Assembly (NCBI RefSeq): GCF_038003525.1
Contig: NZ_JBBOPI010000001.1
Location: 1,851,001 to 1,915,000, forward strand
Direction of reading: 5' to 3'
Length of the DNA: 64,000 nt
Source of the DNA: Solibacillus sp. FSL H8-0538
Lineage (GTDB): Bacteria; Bacillota; Bacilli; Bacillales_A; Planococcaceae
Within the stretch, counting starts at the first letter, position 1. Every line of letters starts with the position of its first letter. The notes beneath the pieces were generated by a model, which saw only the letters and a list, made by a program, of their open reading frames with translations, made no database searches and had not been told where the DNA came from. Made by a program: the position numbers and the translations under genes. Below, one piece after another: positions 23,144 through 33,837 of the stretch.

Positions 23144-26100
23144 TTAATTATTTTGCTCAAGGCATTGGTAAACCGCCATCATATCTCGTTTATTTAACTC
23201 CCGAATACGAATAAAAATTGGAATATCTGCAACAGCCTCAATAGTTACGCTTTCAGCAACTACATCACTTACTTTGCCAGTTAGCCATGTTTTTACTGGT
23301 ATCCCTTCAACAAGCTCCCGAAGGCCATGCTCATTGATGCCACTTGCATAACAACTTACACAAGGAATTGTTAATTTAAACACGCCATCATGGAGCCCGT
23401 CTTCCGAAATTACTTTCTTTCCTTTACAGAATGGACATGGCTCGCTTTTTTTAATTTTATTAATTTGGGTAACTAATTTTTTGTAACCAAATACTTCATA
23501 AACATACGTCAGTTTTTTGTATTTCCCATTGGTGAAATACTTATCAATGATGGTTTCTCTCGTTTCGGTGATATTATCAAAATCACAGATTGTGACCCGA
23601 TTATTAAGGCTGATGGATTCGATATTGCCGCTAATACTGTCCCAAAATGGCAGAACATTTTGTAACACCACTTCATAGTGGGCAAAGCTTGCCTGCTCCA
23701 GCTCAAGCATTTTCAGCGCGACTTGTGTTTCCCGAGGCAAAAGGGAGACATCTTCCGTCAAAGCCATAGCGCCTCCGACAATGGCCTTCATTTTTTCTAG
23801 TAGCTGTAAATTCCCAACGGTTTGCATCACTTGATCAAGAGGCTGTTGAATAATGTCCCGTATATCCGTGTCACCAAATTTCAGCTTTTTATGATGATTC
23901 AGTACGGTTCCTTGACAGATTGGACAAGTAATCATTTCTTTGGATTCTTTGATTTGCTCTTTAATAATCGATTTCGAAACAAATATATAGCGCCCAATGA
24001 GGAGATTAAAGCCTTCCCAAGTCCTCGACGCCTTGCCTGCTTTATCATAGAATGACTTTTCCCAATACCCATATAAAAAGGTATGTTTTTCTGCTTCCGT
24101 CATGTCATTGTAACTTTTACTTATATCCTGCCCGAGCTCATTTTTAATCTCATCAAAGAGGAATTGCAATTTTGGATATTGATAGAATTTTAAAACCTCC
24201 ATCACGTCTGGATGAAGTAAGCCATCCCAAAATGGCACGGTTTTGTCCTGAATTACAATATCTATATCAAATTTCTCAATCACTTGGCGGCCCGAGCAGG
24301 ATGGACAATGGTTTTGCTGATTATAGAAATCGAAGCTATACGTATCTTTATTGGTTGGATGCGCCGCGACTATATGGTTGATCAAGCCGCCCATTTCATA
24401 GAGAAAACTATATTGACTATACAAGTGACGTTCCAGATCAATGGCGATGACGGGTGCAATTGTATCCGATTCGTATTCACCATAAATTAAACGAGCCATT
24501 GATGATAAGCTTTTTAAGATGCCGCCCTTATAGATGTTTTCTGCATTATTAAAATAGGCAATTTGATTTTCTTTTAAATAGTTAATTCCATTTTGTGACT
24601 TTAGTGTTGAAGAAATTTGCAATGGAGCAACTGTAGCTGCACTGTTTTGCCTGCGATAATAATCATTATGACTGACAACATCAAGGTGCTCCACAGGTAC
24701 AGGCTGTCTTTTACCAAAATCAACGATAAAATCAGAGTTTTCTAGCATATAAGCATTATGTTCAATCAATATCATGGAGACAGATTCATCCGTCAGAATG
24801 TCCCTGATGCTATCAATGAATTGATTTAAAATATTTTGTGATAAACCTTTTGAAGGCTCGTCAAAAATAAAAAGCGTATGTGGGTTTCTTGAGTTGGCAA
24901 ACAGCTCTGAAACTAAATGGACACATTGAAATTCACCCGTCGATAAGGACTGTGTTTTTCTTTCCAACGTCAAATACCCAAGTCCAAGTTTAATCAATAA
25001 GCTCAAACGTTTATGCGCGATGTCTTCGTTTGGCAGTTCATCAATAATATCTTCAATCGAGCGCTGAAAAATATCTTCAATATCTTCACTATATTTTGTG
25101 AGTTTCTTTTTAATATCAAGAAAAGTCGCAACAGTTGACCGACTAGTAATCGATTGGTTCCGATCTTGCCCAACCATGACCAGTTTATCTTTTGGATAGC
25201 GCTTCAGAAAATCTTTGGCCATACACTCATTGACAAGTGTCGATTTTCCACATCCAGACTCCCCCGTAAAAGTGACAATTCTATTTTGGGGAATCTGTAT
25301 CTCAGCCATTTGAATATTACGACAGTAAAGATCCTGAAATTGATAGTATTCTGTGGGTATAGCCCGATTTCGTTCCCAAGTAATTGGTTTTGGACGTGGT
25401 GATTCTTCAACAATTTTCCCGCCGTATTTACCACTACCAGGCCCAAAGAACAATTGCTCATTCGTTGTGTCGAGCACCGTGTCAGAATGGTCAATAAGCC
25501 AAATTTGATTTTTATAGCCCAATTGTTGAATCTGTTCTAAAATTCCTAATAACGTTTGGTGATCTAGCCCCACGGAGATTTCATCAATTATAATGACCGT
25601 ATTTTCACTTGTTGCCATGAATTCTGCCAAATAAAGTCGTGTTAATTCTCCACCTGACAATGTTCCCATAATGCGATTTAAAGTTAAGTAACCAATATTC
25701 ATATTGATGATATTTTTAAGAATATGTTGTTTAGCTTCACTAATATTTAAAACGTCTGCTAGTGAAAAAATGGTCTCAATGCATAAGTCGTTAATATCGG
25801 AAATATTCTGTGGTTTATCAAATAATTCAATCATATATTGCCCGGCTTCTTGATTATAGCGCTTCCCCTTACACTTAGGACATTCGATATTTTTAGTAGT
25901 TCCGCGACCTTTACAAGCTGGACACCAACCTAATTCATTATTAAACGAAAAAACTTCCGGAGAAAGATTATATTTTTCTGCAAGAGTTACACGTATCTCA
26001 GTAAACACGCCCGTATGTGTACCCATTGTTGAACGTGGATTGGAAGAAATTGATGACCTTCCTAGAAAAAGTACAAGAGGCATTTCTTCCATCTTGATGG

Positions 26101-26314
26101 CACTAAAATTGGTTTCCATAATAGTAGGAAATAAATACTGATATTCAGCTTTTGGCAATAAGGAAACGAGACGCTTCTTAGATTCTTCCCCAATAGTTAG
26201 ACAAAAAGTTGTTTTACCAGATCCAGACAAACCAGCAATTCCTAACGATTCCTCTCCTGGTAGTACTGCATCTAATTTGTTAATATTGTTCGCAATTAAT
26301 TGATTTATTTTCAT
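23144..26314 (-). CDS. UvrA-like ABC ATPase with two intact and one decayed ATPase-like section
   Basis: 1056 residues. ATG at 26314 follows GAGAGGAG; the GTG seven codons upstream overlaps that site. Half 1: Walker A GLSGSGKTT (28-36), zinc module CPAC...CPKC (131-148), signature LSGGE (219-223), Walker B IIIDE (241-245). Half 2: Walker A GESGCGKST (351-359), altered signature LSTGE (457-461), Walker B FIFDE (482-486). The last ~550 residues contain more Cys pairs (CPSC 670, CPIC 797, CPFC 960, CVSC 985) and a stretch LLPRETQVALKMLEL where a signature would be, but no Walker A. Housekeeping UvrA is ~950 residues with a different order, so this is a paralogue, of the type seen in resistance or self-protection roles. 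The actual role is unknown; no uvrB or biosynthetic gene is nearby. Confidence 0.8.
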   Translation of the reverse strand: MKINQLIANNINKLDAVLPGEESLGIAGLSGSGKTTFCLTIGEESKKRLVSLLPKAEYQYLFPTIMETNFSAIKMEEMPLVLFLGRSSISSNPRSTMGTHTGVFTEIRVTLAEKYNLSPEVFSFNNELGWCPACKGRGTTKNIECPKCKGKRYNQEAGQYMIELFDKPQNISDINDLCIETIFSLADVLNISEAKQHILKNIINMNIGYLTLNRIMGTLSGGELTRLYLAEFMATSENTVIIIDEISVGLDHQTLLGILEQIQQLGYKNQIWLIDHSDTVLDTTNEQLFFGPGSGKYGGKIVEESPRPKPITWERNRAIPTEYYQFQDLYCRNIQMAEIQIPQNRIVTFTGESGCGKSTLVNECMAKDFLKRYPKDKLVMVGQDRNQSITSRSTVATFLDIKKKLTKYSEDIEDIFQRSIEDIIDELPNEDIAHKRLSLLIKLGLGYLTLERKTQSLSTGEFQCVHLVSELFANSRNPHTLFIFDEPSKGLSQNILNQFIDSIRDILTDESVSMILIEHNAYMLENSDFIVDFGKRQPVPVEHLDVVSHNDYYRRQNSAATVAPLQISSTLKSQNGINYLKENQIAYFNNAENIYKGGILKSLSSMARLIYGEYESDTIAPVIAIDLERHLYSQYSFLYEMGGLINHIVAAHPTNKDTYSFDFYNQQNHCPSCSGRQVIEKFDIDIVIQDKTVPFWDGLLHPDVMEVLKFYQYPKLQFLFDEIKNELGQDISKSYNDMTEAEKHTFLYGYWEKSFYDKAGKASRTWEGFNLLIGRYIFVSKSIIKEQIKESKEMITCPICQGTVLNHHKKLKFGDTDIRDIIQQPLDQVMQTVGNLQLLEKMKAIVGGAMALTEDVSLLPRETQVALKMLELEQASFAHYEVVLQNVLPFWDSISGNIESISLNNRVTICDFDNITETRETIIDKYFTNGKYKKLTYVYEVFGYKKLVTQINKIKKSEPCPFCKGKKVISEDGLHDGVFKLTIPCVSCYASGINEHGLRELVEGIPVKTWLTGKVSDVVAESVTIEAVADIPIFIRIRELNKRDMMAVYQCLEQNN

Positions 26315-26603
26315 AGCGATCTCCTCTCCACTCACTAATTATAGTATTGCCATGTTAGTGAATCTACAAATGAATTTGTTGTGTTACTTGTTTCAGGTGT
26401 ACTTGTTTAGTTTATTGCTATGAACTGCCGCGATGCACAGGTGCAGAAAAAACGTCCCTTACGTTAAATGAAGTAAATACGTAAAGTTAAGGTCAAATTG
26501 CCTAGTCAGTTGTCAATTCGCAGCGTAAAATTTTTGAAAATGCTGACGCTTTCCCCTACTTCATTGCGTCTAACAGTATATAATAGACCTATGGAGGTAG
26601 ATT

Positions 26604-29732: not shown

Positions 29733-29917
29733 TTAACCTCTTCCCTTCAACGAATTTTTATTGTTAAACCTTAATTGACAATGCAATAAAAGGTATCGTT
29801 AGTAAATTATACTTATTTGTCTAATTATAATGCTTCACAATGATACAATTCAATGATAAATAAAATAAAACATTGCTACTATTTAGAAAATACATTATTT
29901 TTAGCCACAAATTAAAA

Positions 29918-29954
29918 ACAACCTTACATACAGTGACTGTATGCAAGGTTGTTA
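29918..29954 (-). terminator. terminator of the small-protein operon
   Basis: On the minus strand AACAACCTTGCATACAG, 3-base loop, CTGTATGTAAGGTTGTT, then a T run. A very strong hairpin with one bulge, 14 bases past the last small gene. Confidence 0.85.
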
Positions 29955-29967
29955 CCGGACATCGCTA

Positions 29968-30135
29968 TTAGCTGGCGAATTCATTTCTTCCTCTTTTCTG
30001 CTGTGCACGCTCATTGTACGTATCAAGCTGTTCGTGTGATAAGTTCAAGATGAAATAGTGGAAATTGATTGGTTCAAGACCATGTTCCTCACAAGCTTTT
30101 CTATAGTATTCATAGCCACTTCGATAATCAGACAT
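29968..30135 (-). CDS. small protein, 55 aa, paralogue of the gene upstream
   Basis: Starts MSDYRSGYEYYRKACEEHGL and continues EPINFHYFILNLSHEQLDTY, ending with a basic tail (QQKRGRNEFAS). ATG lies 7-8 bases after GGGAGGT, which is inside the last codons of the upstream paralogue; one base separates the upstream stop from this start. The two proteins align without gaps over ~45 residues, with YR-GYE-Y---C---GLEPINF-Y----LS-EQL--YNE-A identical. No signal or membrane segment. The family is unknown to me. Preserved reading frame after duplication, ribosome site and terminator argue that it is real. Confidence 0.75.
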   Translation of the reverse strand: MSDYRSGYEYYRKACEEHGLEPINFHYFILNLSHEQLDTYNERAQQKRGRNEFAS

Positions 30136-30136
30136 A

Positions 30137-30292
30137 TTAGTTACCTCCCTTCATTGTATATGCTTGCTCATTATAAGCATTTAACTGTTCTTGTGAGAGT
30201 TGGATTACATAATAGCGGAAATTGATCGGCTCTAACCCAAACTGCTCGCATTTTGATAAATATACTTCATAACCTTCACGATACATTGTCAA
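30137..30292 (-). CDS. small protein, 51 aa, first of a tandem pair
   Basis: Starts at TTG (MTMYREGYEVYLSKCEQFGL, then EPINFRYYVIQLSQEQLNAY) because GAGGT is 7 bases upstream of that codon and the N-terminus then matches its paralogue. The ATG two codons later is spaced too far. The C-terminal codons double as the ribosome-binding site of the second gene, so the two are translationally linked. Predicted as two helices around a GLEPINF turn. Function unknown. Confidence 0.72.
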   Translation of the reverse strand: MTMYREGYEVYLSKCEQFGLEPINFRYYVIQLSQEQLNAYNEQAYTMKGGN

Positions 30293-30400
30293 ATGAATTA
30301 CCTCATTTCTTTTTTTGTACTATAACAGAATATGTTTCTTGTATTTAATATAGTACAGAATGGTTGAAGTGTCAATAAATTATCTGAAAAATTTATAAAT

Positions 30401-30452: not shown

Positions 30453-31406
30453 TCATATTATATTATTAAACGGGTTATTTTTCAGTACTTCTTGAATCTG
30501 CTCATCTTCTATATGAGTATAAATTTGCGTCGTAGCAACACTGGAGTGCCCTAAAATATGCTGCAAACTACGAATATCCGCACCCGCCTTATACATCATT
30601 GTTGCAGATGTATGGCGTAGCTTATGTGGGGTAAGTTTATCCTTTTTATGCTCGGACTGTGCATTGATTTGCTTGACGATTTTTGCAACCGTTTGGCGGG
30701 CAAAACGTGCCCCTTTTTGAGAGACAAAGAGTGGCTCCGGACCGCTTCCTTTAAAAGCATGACGCTCAGTTAAATAGCGTTCTAGCGCGGCTAAACAGGC
30801 GTCATTTAAATACACAGTGCGCTCCTTATTCCCCTTCCCTATAACCGTCAAATTACGCCCCTGAACCGAGTTATTGTTTAGTGAACATAGCTCTGATACC
30901 CGGATGCCGAGGTTCAAAAAAAACACCATCATACAGTAGTCCCGCGTTGAGTAATGCTGCTCCTGAATCGCCGTAAGAAATGCCTTCGCTTCGTCCATAT
31001 TCAAGTAAATCGGTGTACGTTTCCCGATTTTTGGCGATTCTAACTCCTCTGCTGGGTTTTCTTCTATTAAACGACGCTTCCCCTTTAAATATTTAAAAAA
31101 AGCCTTCAATGTAGCTACTTTACGAGCACGTGCTGCCGCCGAGTTATTTCGCTGTACCTCGCAGTATTCCATAAATAAGTATAAATCCTCAAGTGAGAGC
31201 TCGCGAACCCAATCAATTGTTATGTCCGAAATATCAACCATATGTATTTGTGCTGGTAGTACGTCTTCTTGTACGCCTTTTATAAAACGCAGGAATAGTA
31301 CAAGGTCATATTCGTATTCTTTACGGGTACGCTGTGATTTCCCGGTAATCGTCGTTAAATAGATCAAAAAGTCCTTCAAAATTTTTGGTAATGCCGTTTG
31401 CTTCAT
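30453..31406 (-). CDS. tyrosine recombinase, XerC/XerD-like
   Basis: 317 residues. ATG at 31406 follows GAGGTGAGGG; the frame extends 17 codons upstream into a palindromic operator-like region. SAM-like N-terminal domain about 1-115. All catalytic residues are visible: Arg in LGIRVSEL (~174), Lys in GKGNKERTV (~198), HKLRHT (His/Arg, ~264), HILGHSS (~287) and Tyr in YTHIE (~299). No prophage or attachment site is nearby, so it may be a chromosome-encoded Xer-type enzyme or remnant of a mobile element. A LexA-type box and a long inverted repeat lie upstream. Confidence 0.88.
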   Translation of the reverse strand: MKQTALPKILKDFLIYLTTITGKSQRTRKEYEYDLVLFLRFIKGVQEDVLPAQIHMVDISDITIDWVRELSLEDLYLFMEYCEVQRNNSAAARARKVATLKAFFKYLKGKRRLIEENPAEELESPKIGKRTPIYLNMDEAKAFLTAIQEQHYSTRDYCMMVFFLNLGIRVSELCSLNNNSVQGRNLTVIGKGNKERTVYLNDACLAALERYLTERHAFKGSGPEPLFVSQKGARFARQTVAKIVKQINAQSEHKKDKLTPHKLRHTSATMMYKAGADIRSLQHILGHSSVATTQIYTHIEDEQIQEVLKNNPFNNII

Positions 31407-31439
31407 TTCCCTCACCTCTAAGGGTAATAATACCATAAA

Positions 31440-31471
31440 TAACGTTCCCAAATTCATATTTGGGAACGTTT
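31440..31471. promoter_or_regulatory. long inverted repeat before the recombinase gene (putative operator)
   Basis: AACGTTCCCAAAT, 4-base centre, ATTTGGGAACGTT: a perfect 13-bp inverted repeat starting ~34 bases upstream of the recombinase start. There is no T run in the direction of transcription, so an operator is more likely than a terminator. Confidence 0.5.
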
Positions 31472-31697: not shown

Positions 31698-32012
31698 TTA
31701 AGAAATAAGTTTTAATCCGATAACCGAAACAATGATGAGGAAGATAAAGAATATCCGCTTCCAGTCCTTTGACTCTTTGTAAATGAGCATGCCAATAATC
31801 GCTCCACCTGATGCGCCAATGCCTGTCCAAATTGCATAGGCCGTTCCCATCGGTAAAGTTTTCATCGCCACTGTTAATAATGCGAAACTCGCGGTGAAAA
31901 ATACAATAAGCAGGACAACTGGCTTCCAGCTTCGTTTCGCGTACATTTCATTCATCATGACAACGCCTAACATTTCACAAAGCCCTGCAGCAATTAATGC
32001 AATCCACGCCAT
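31698..32012 (-). CDS. ykkD: SMR-family guanidinium exporter subunit, YkkD-like
   Basis: A 104-residue four-helix membrane protein. ATG at 32012 follows GAGGAGGAC; a GTG 15 bases upstream is within that site. Helix 1 carries the conserved Glu in LCEMLGVVMMN, and the PMGTAYAIWTGIGASGG segment is typical. It pairs with the preceding gene as a heteromeric SMR transporter; stop and start are separated by one base. Control by the guanidine-I RNA points to guanidinium export rather than general multidrug export. Confidence 0.92.
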   Translation of the reverse strand: MAWIALIAAGLCEMLGVVMMNEMYAKRSWKPVVLLIVFFTASFALLTVAMKTLPMGTAYAIWTGIGASGGAIIGMLIYKESKDWKRIFFIFLIIVSVIGLKLIS

Positions 32013-32013
32013 T

Positions 32014-32349
32014 CTAGTCCTCCTCACTTTCTGTTGAATTTGATATGAGCTTCAGCCCTAATACACCACTTAGTAAGACTATAATAAGTGCGACTTTTAC
32101 GATATCAAACGGTTCGCGGAAGAACACCATTTCCGTAATGACCGTGCCAGCTGTACCAAGCCCTACAAATACCGCATAAACCGTTCCCACAGGTAACCTA
32201 CCACTAGCATAAATCATACCGCAGAAGCTAATAATGATGCCAATGACCGTTGAACCCCATGTTAAAACTGAGTCTGCATGCTTTAACCCAATTACCCAAC
32301 CTACTTCAAATACTGCTGCTATGACTACTATAAGCCAAATACGATTCAT
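32014..32349 (-). CDS. ykkC: SMR-family guanidinium exporter subunit, YkkC-like
   Basis: 111 residues, four membrane helices. The essential Glu is in [16 protein letters not shown] and the family segment is [19 protein letters not shown]. Close to Bacillus YkkC in length and sequence. ATG after GAAGGAGG. First gene of the operon, directly behind the guanidine-I riboswitch. Confidence 0.93.
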
Positions 32350-32955: not shown

Positions 32956-33837
32956 CTAACTTCTTCCATGCATGCGATCTTGGCGCTCTTTTAAGACGCC
33001 TTTTCGTGCGTAGCCTAATCGTTTGTACAACTCGAAATCTTCGTCAGATTCAGCGACATTTTCACGGTCAATTAAAGTATAACGCACATTTGTACATGTT
33101 ACTTTAACGCCGAGCTGCTCTGAAATATATTTAAATACACGTTCAATCGTTTTTACAGATATCGGCTCACCTTGTTTGTTACCAACACCTAGCCACATAA
33201 AATCTGTAAATTCGGCTGCTGGTAGAAAAGCCATTGTTTCTTTCTTATATTGATGTAGTAAATCCTTTAACATAGATGGCAGGGGTAGTAAGCGGTGCGA
33301 ACGTGATGATTTAATACGAATTTGCGTATGCTCAATATGTTTCCATTTCATTCGCACGACCTCTGCTGGCTTTAACCCTAATTGGCTTACTGTTTGCACA
33401 ATTGCAGAATTACGCAGCGCGATCCATCGTATTTCTTCTTCTTGTGCATGTTCATATATCCGATTCCAAACTTGGAGCGCTTCTTTTAACTGCTGCTCGG
33501 TTAGTAATTGTAGCTGACTTTTATCGGTTTTTACTGGCAGTAATAATGTTTCTGGGATACTTACATGATGACCACGAAGTTGAAGAAATTGAAGAAAACT
33601 GCGCAATGAAGCAATTTTTCGGTTGACACTCGTTTTAGCATTAAACGTCGCCATTAAATGTGCTCGGTATGCAGTTACAGTCTCTACGGGTGTTTGGAAT
33701 AGATCGTAGGTTTGCTGTTCTGTATATTTAACAAATTGCTGGCAGTCAATTGTGTATTGCTTAATTGTATGTGAGGATTTATTAATATTCATTAAATGAA
33801 CGCGGAAATGCTCTACTAATTCAGCAAAATCGGTCAT
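32956..33837 (-). CDS. tyrosine-recombinase-fold protein lacking catalytic residues
   Basis: 293 residues with the Xer-like layout: SAM-like N-terminal domain (EHFRVHLMNINKSSHTIKQY, then TIDCQQFVKYTE, ~1-90) and a C-terminal domain with the expected strands. The catalytic positions are altered. The first Arg is Lys (LGLKPAEVVRM), the HxLRHT box reads CTNVRYTLI, so both His are lost, the LGH box reads LGYARKG, and no Tyr follows. It cannot act as a normal recombinase; a DNA-binding or regulatory use is possible. ATG at 33837 after GGAGAG. Intact length and frame argue against a recent pseudogene. Confidence 0.75.
   Translation of the reverse strand: MTDFAELVEHFRVHLMNINKSSHTIKQYTIDCQQFVKYTEQQTYDLFQTPVETVTAYRAHLMATFNAKTSVNRKIASLRSFLQFLQLRGHHVSIPETLLLPVKTDKSQLQLLTEQQLKEALQVWNRIYEHAQEEEIRWIALRNSAIVQTVSQLGLKPAEVVRMKWKHIEHTQIRIKSSRSHRLLPLPSMLKDLLHQYKKETMAFLPAAEFTDFMWLGVGNKQGEPISVKTIERVFKYISEQLGVKVTCTNVRYTLIDRENVAESDEDFELYKRLGYARKGVLKERQDRMHGRS

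Follow-up and report, generated by a model that had tools for sequence, protein, structure and literature searches.

What two adjacent genes for proteins of about 50 residues contribute to Solibacillus sp. FSL H8-0538 is the question raised by this locus, which lies in a window of 64,000 nucleotides (the whole stretch of DNA that was analyzed). A sequence-only reading had described the two as translationally linked paralogues, and the layout of the locus agrees with it. Both open reading frames are present on the minus strand, the leading gene being called B and the following gene A here, and the proteins are 55% identical across 51 residues (E=2e-21). Each gene has a ribosome site, that of gene A being contained in the final codons of gene B (K-G-G-N-stop), and a single base separates the stop of B from the ATG of A. 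Gene B does begin with TTG (at 30292), the codon at which its orthologues use ATG, and the strong terminator expected downstream of the pair was recovered as a stable hairpin (Table 1). Tight coupling of this kind recurs: counting redundant copies, 48 fetched loci have a gap between -7 and +7 nt, and in other genomes the family copies lie 110 to 470 nt apart.

Four elements come in addition: a hairpin upstream of the unit, a promoter that fits the sigma-A consensus, an operator of two sites, and a CodY-like box. The upstream hairpin insulates the B-A unit and, given that hairpins stand on both of its sides, the pair looks like an independent transcription unit. Some gene-finding pipelines may call these proteins of 51 to 55 aa as hypothetical proteins.

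Table 1. Positions of the features of the B-A unit and of the related operator at aceA
Feature	Position	Strand	Basis or remark
Gene B, 51-aa small protein MTMYREGYEVYLSKCEQFGLEPINFRYYVIQLSQEQLNAYNEQAYTMKGGN, TTG start, TAA stop	30137..30292	-	ORF and alignment
Gene A, 55-aa paralogue of B MSDYRSGYEYYRKACEEHGLEPINFHYFILNLSHEQLDTYNERAQQKRGRNEFAS, ATG start	29968..30135	-	ORF and alignment
Ribosome site of gene A, GGGAGGTAA	30141..30149	-	Within 3' end of gene B
Ribosome site of gene B, ATGAGGT	30300..30306	-	7 nt 5' of TTG
Intrinsic terminator of the B-A pair, 17-pair hairpin	29917..29953	-	Fold prediction, -23.6 kcal/mol, z -6.7
Strong hairpin separating the tyrosine recombinase gene from the B promoter	30403..30440		Fold prediction
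-35 box TTGACA	30370..30375	-	TTGAC[AG] kept in nearly all members
-10 box TATATT, spacer 17	30347..30352	-	Conserved upstream block
Operator site 1, CTGTACTATATTA	30346..30358	-	Overlaps -10 box
Operator site 2, CTGTTATAGTACA	30316..30328	-	Just 3' of promoter; starts 30 bp after site 1
CodY-like box ATTTTTCAGATAATT, 13/15 matches to AATTTTCWGAAAATT	30378..30392	-	2 nt 5' of -35 box
Two-site operator of aceA, own genome	L273 18662-18704 = C1:118662-118704		Same architecture as in the window

A conserved family of small acidic proteins

The sequence-only reading had argued that duplicates kept in frame point to function and had proposed a tblastn search of other genomes. Of 200 genomes from the same taxonomic family, 96 gave homologues of gene A in this search, spread over 12 of 19 genera; a conserved frame, an aligned start, and a ribosome site are widespread among them. 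Our searches covered sampled genomes; among these, profile searches extended the protein family to three further families of Bacilli, and a scan of named genomes found it in Lysinibacillus, Ureibacillus, Solibacillus, Metalysinibacillus, Viridibacillus, and Kurthia. Iterative HMM searches gave 126 distinct members in the fetched loci, and a Shine-Dalgarno-like site precedes 121 of the 123 distinct full-length members. The median pairwise dN/dS of 0.26, together with pN/pS values of about 0.04-0.2 for the closest pairs, indicates that the family genes are under purifying selection. Both conserved-frame homologues and protein constraint, the two things on which the argument for function had been made to depend, were therefore found. 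The A and B types occupy separate parts of a tree that has many weak forks and rests on a short alignment, and each type spans several genera, suggesting that the duplication is old. An early alignment (A1), used in the early profile searches, contained one distant row (from L047) with a guessed two-residue start; it was replaced by an alignment of direct references only (A2) for the structure and the later searches.

The supposition that the family is unannotated also stood, given that no Pfam, NCBIfam, or PHROG model covers A or B; neither single members nor a set of 49 found a fitting family in these collections, their matches being scattered and marginal. AlphaFold2, supplied with the family alignment, produced a three-helix model (mean pLDDT 88.5, core about 95, pTM 0.70) with predicted helices at residues 5-17, 25-31, and 34-53. 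Residues Y11, C15, L32, and Q36 are invariant in the 49-member alignment, and the members are acidic (median pI 5.1), which favors protein over DNA partners. In the PDB, the family profile matched nothing below E 0.5 by sequence, single proteins matched designed TPR proteins via a simple Y/E-rich helix, and Foldseek gave no match at E<=0.001. HMG boxes share the three-helix arrangement, have a similar LS..xx..Y...A register, and gave weak structural Z scores of up to 5.0 (VIA-align, 51 residues at 2.6 A for 6l34), such as helical models can reach by chance; the family differs in a much shorter helix 2 and in its acidity, and there was no sequence or profile match. A and B are, on this evidence, members of an undescribed family of acidic proteins of about 45-55 residues with a predicted three-helix fold.

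A two-site operator shared with glyoxylate-shunt genes

Whether the pair occurs near particular genes had also been asked. Of 41 family loci, 26 have a recombinase-cluster gene and 22 a GGDEF-EAL gene, but in other genera the small genes have quite different neighbors. The question is better answered at the level of the promoter, where the motif comparison ties the pair to aceA, the isocitrate lyase gene, through a shared operator.

Leading genes of the family carry an upstream block, TTGAC[AG]-N17-TATATT, in which the -10 box lies within CTGTNNTATATTA (site 1). The second site, CTGTTATNNNACAG, begins about 30 bp past site 1 and 5' of the ribosome site, and the doublet overlaps the -10 box and the transcript start. 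All 86 inspectable distinct leading genes have at the promoter either this doublet or one that is close to it or inverted. A relaxed regular expression found it at 80 of the 86, compared to 0 of 23 tightly following genes; of the remaining six, L048, L062, L065, and L139 have a substituted doublet, and in L088 and L090 it lies farther upstream and is inverted. The most distant members have TATAACAG-N(about 17)-CTGTTATA, which is inverted, with a center spacing of about 31 bp and the half-site kept. Given that the leader RNA of gene B is predicted to be unstructured (z +0.44), the motif reads as DNA. Rfam yielded no match at gathering score. RNA pairing of sites 1 and 2 was considered and rejected, since site 1 coincides with the -10 box and no structure is predicted for the leader.

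CodY has a role in nutrient repression and recognizes the consensus AATTTTCWGAAAATT. A CodY-like box lies 1-5 nt 5' of the -35 box in about 35 of 80 loci and was absent from the main Lysinibacillus group. The promoter of the B-A pair carries such a box, the mark of the CodY regulon used here, and its 13 of 15 matches have a p of 0.01 by shuffling.

The strict form of the doublet was found in 43 of 101 genomes of the taxonomic family and in 36 of 398 genomes of the class, and the reversed pattern was found in none of either set. The fetched loci, 2.43 Mb counting both strands, contained 97 doublets at small genes and 1 elsewhere, with 0 for the reversed control. The lone doublet elsewhere, CTGTTATATAGTA...CTGTTATGGGACA, is closely upstream of the aceA gene of the Solibacillus genome that contains the window, in which the scan with a relaxed site 2 covered 400 kb and the window, and the whole-genome scans used stricter forms. 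The aceA upstream regions of relatives match the doublet by regular expression in 20 of 30 cases, and several more have close forms by eye. Class-wide, doublets that were not at a small gene stood before aceA, or before malate synthase either directly or via a Cys-rich small ORF, the case in one genome (G229) being unclear. Given that the same doublet is present at B-A and at aceA, we read the pair as part of the glyoxylate-shunt (aceA) regulon of Bacilli, a regulon that we define here by the two-site operator and whose spacing of about 30 bp the pair's promoter doublet shares.

In one genus (g18), five genomes carry the small gene and operator but lack isocitrate lyase, suggesting that the link to the shunt is one of shared regulation and is not obligate, and leading us to reject a strict dependence on isocitrate lyase. 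Many relatives have aceA and no small gene. The operator also stands at aceA or malate synthase, with no family member at profile level, in G012, G030, and the genera g34 and g66, which shows that the regulator can do without a small protein of the family. A further proposal, that the operator is private to the small gene and hence autoregulatory, was dropped given its presence at aceA, malate synthase, and yhfH-like genes. A search for a regulator gene near the ace genes of several genera found mainly the shunt genes themselves recurring, and the open literature searched contained nothing relevant on the operator sequence and named no regulator for it. In one genus only (L159 and L160), the operator separates aceA from a divergently oriented LytTR-type regulator gene, a candidate that is not conserved elsewhere. 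The operator, sharply defined and marking glyoxylate-shunt genes across Bacilli, could be used as bait for the regulator.

Small genes other than those of the family also lie behind the operator. In G056, a second doublet stands 5' of a yhfH-like small-gene array; from position 1501 of L187, the operator is followed by at least four tandem, near-identical 40-residue yhfH-like zinc-ribbon genes, with a ribBA-like gene nearby. In G393 (L088), a yhfH-like gene and a family small gene form one operon behind an inverted operator. YhfH is described as a small protein and dual-function sRNA of about 42 aa (PMC10989752). The yhfH-like genes are thus akin to the family in operator and, once, in operon, but their products are Cys-rich and zinc-ribbon-like, whereas the family has one invariant Cys and no Pfam match, and we saw no sequence similarity between the two.

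A parallel in metabolic setting is BL02643 of B. licheniformis (about 5 kDa), which is encoded 5' of aceBA and was reported to be required for the shunt to function once transferred to B. subtilis (PMC3728045). Compared by description only, BL02643 resembles A and B in that a small-protein gene is expressed with glyoxylate-shunt genes, and differs in that it sits in the aceBA operon itself. In L197-L199 (1501-1722), 3' of a serS-like gene, the operator is followed by a ~50-residue Cys-rich ORF with DnaJ-like CxxCxGxG repeats and then by malate synthase; this layout recalls BL02643-aceBA, with an unrelated ORF in the analogous place. In G229 (L200, 1501-1537), a shorter, 37-bp doublet lies 3' of a polyribonucleotide nucleotidyltransferase-like gene, and which gene it would serve is not clear.

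Possible roles of A and B

Judging from the promoter, the pair probably belongs to the programme by which the cell lives on acetate or fatty acids. The reading we favor, with a probability of roughly 0.6, is that A and B are small proteins of the glyoxylate-shunt regulon that are expressed on acetate or fatty acids and modulate a central-carbon enzyme. A putative dimeric regulator would bind both sites cooperatively (about 30 bp, or three helical turns) and repress transcription, and CodY would add repression when amino acids are plentiful, providing a starvation input. Repression would be lifted once the cell has to conserve acetyl-CoA derived from acetate or fatty acids, and the pair would be made together with AceA as the cell turns to these substrates from sugar and amino acids. 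More tentatively, A and B may bind another protein, and their own action is probably the modulation of a central-carbon enzyme. The target could be an enzyme near the isocitrate/acetyl-CoA node, such as isocitrate dehydrogenase, and would not be AceA, which is unlikely as the sole target given that it is missing from the five g18 genomes that have the small gene and operator. Under this reading, the small proteins offer a testable candidate mechanism by which these bacteria could divide isocitrate between two pathways, and an undescribed, conserved small-protein family would be added to the central metabolism of a large group of environmental Bacilli. We regard as quite unlikely a bolder version in which the family is a Gram-positive isocitrate branch-point switch, co-expressed with isocitrate lyase and restraining isocitrate dehydrogenase or a neighboring TCA enzyme by binding, comparable to the AceK kinase of E. 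coli.

Alternatively, A and B could be anti-repressors that, in the manner of SinI, bind the repressor reading the operator and feed back on the regulon. They are small, acidic, all-helical, and co-expressed with the regulon, the SinI/SlrA anti-repressors (PF08671) of Bacilli are likewise small (about 50 aa), helical, and loosely similar in residue pattern, and the 14-bp operator palindrome CTGT-N6-ACAG presumably resembles XRE-type operators. However, the SinI profile gave no match to the 49 members at E<=1 and none over cut-off in this genome, no solved SinI was among the PDB profile matches, and the operator context differs, and so we consider this possible but unlikely. It is very unlikely that A and B are themselves DNA-binding autoregulators reading the operator. 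Operator and family are inseparable at the family's own promoter, even in very distant members, and, judged by eye in the alignment, the spacing of C15, G19, L20, F25, and Y28 within residues 11-30 suits a helix-turn-helix; against this stand the operators at aceA and malate synthase in genomes lacking the family, the acidity of the proteins, and the lack of an HTH family match above chance.

We find it highly improbable that the transcript is a regulatory RNA whose ORFs matter little, as has been partly proposed for the yhfH transcript of B. thuringiensis; the dual-function sRNA described for yhfH (PMC10989752) and the operator and operon shared with yhfH-like genes fit such a role, but the low dN/dS, the conserved starts and ribosome sites, the unstructured leader, and the lack of an Rfam match at gathering score do not. 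It is hardly credible that the pair is a passenger of the adjoining tyrosine recombinase, or that it works for the GGDEF-EAL gene downstream, as their frequency as neighbors might suggest, given the hairpins that bound the unit, the different surroundings in other genera, and the lack of any family match in plasmid and phage collections.

The window also contains XerC/XerD-like tyrosine recombinase genes a few kb apart (30453-31457 and 32956-33837), the first of which often adjoins the small genes in relatives. Between them, at 31698-32349, are two adjacent, overlapping ORFs of 109 and 111 aa for small multidrug-resistance-type transporters, likely a heterodimer pair. A 1063-residue ORF with a GTG start (23144-26335) has UvrA-like ABC ATPase signatures and zinc-finger CxxC motifs.
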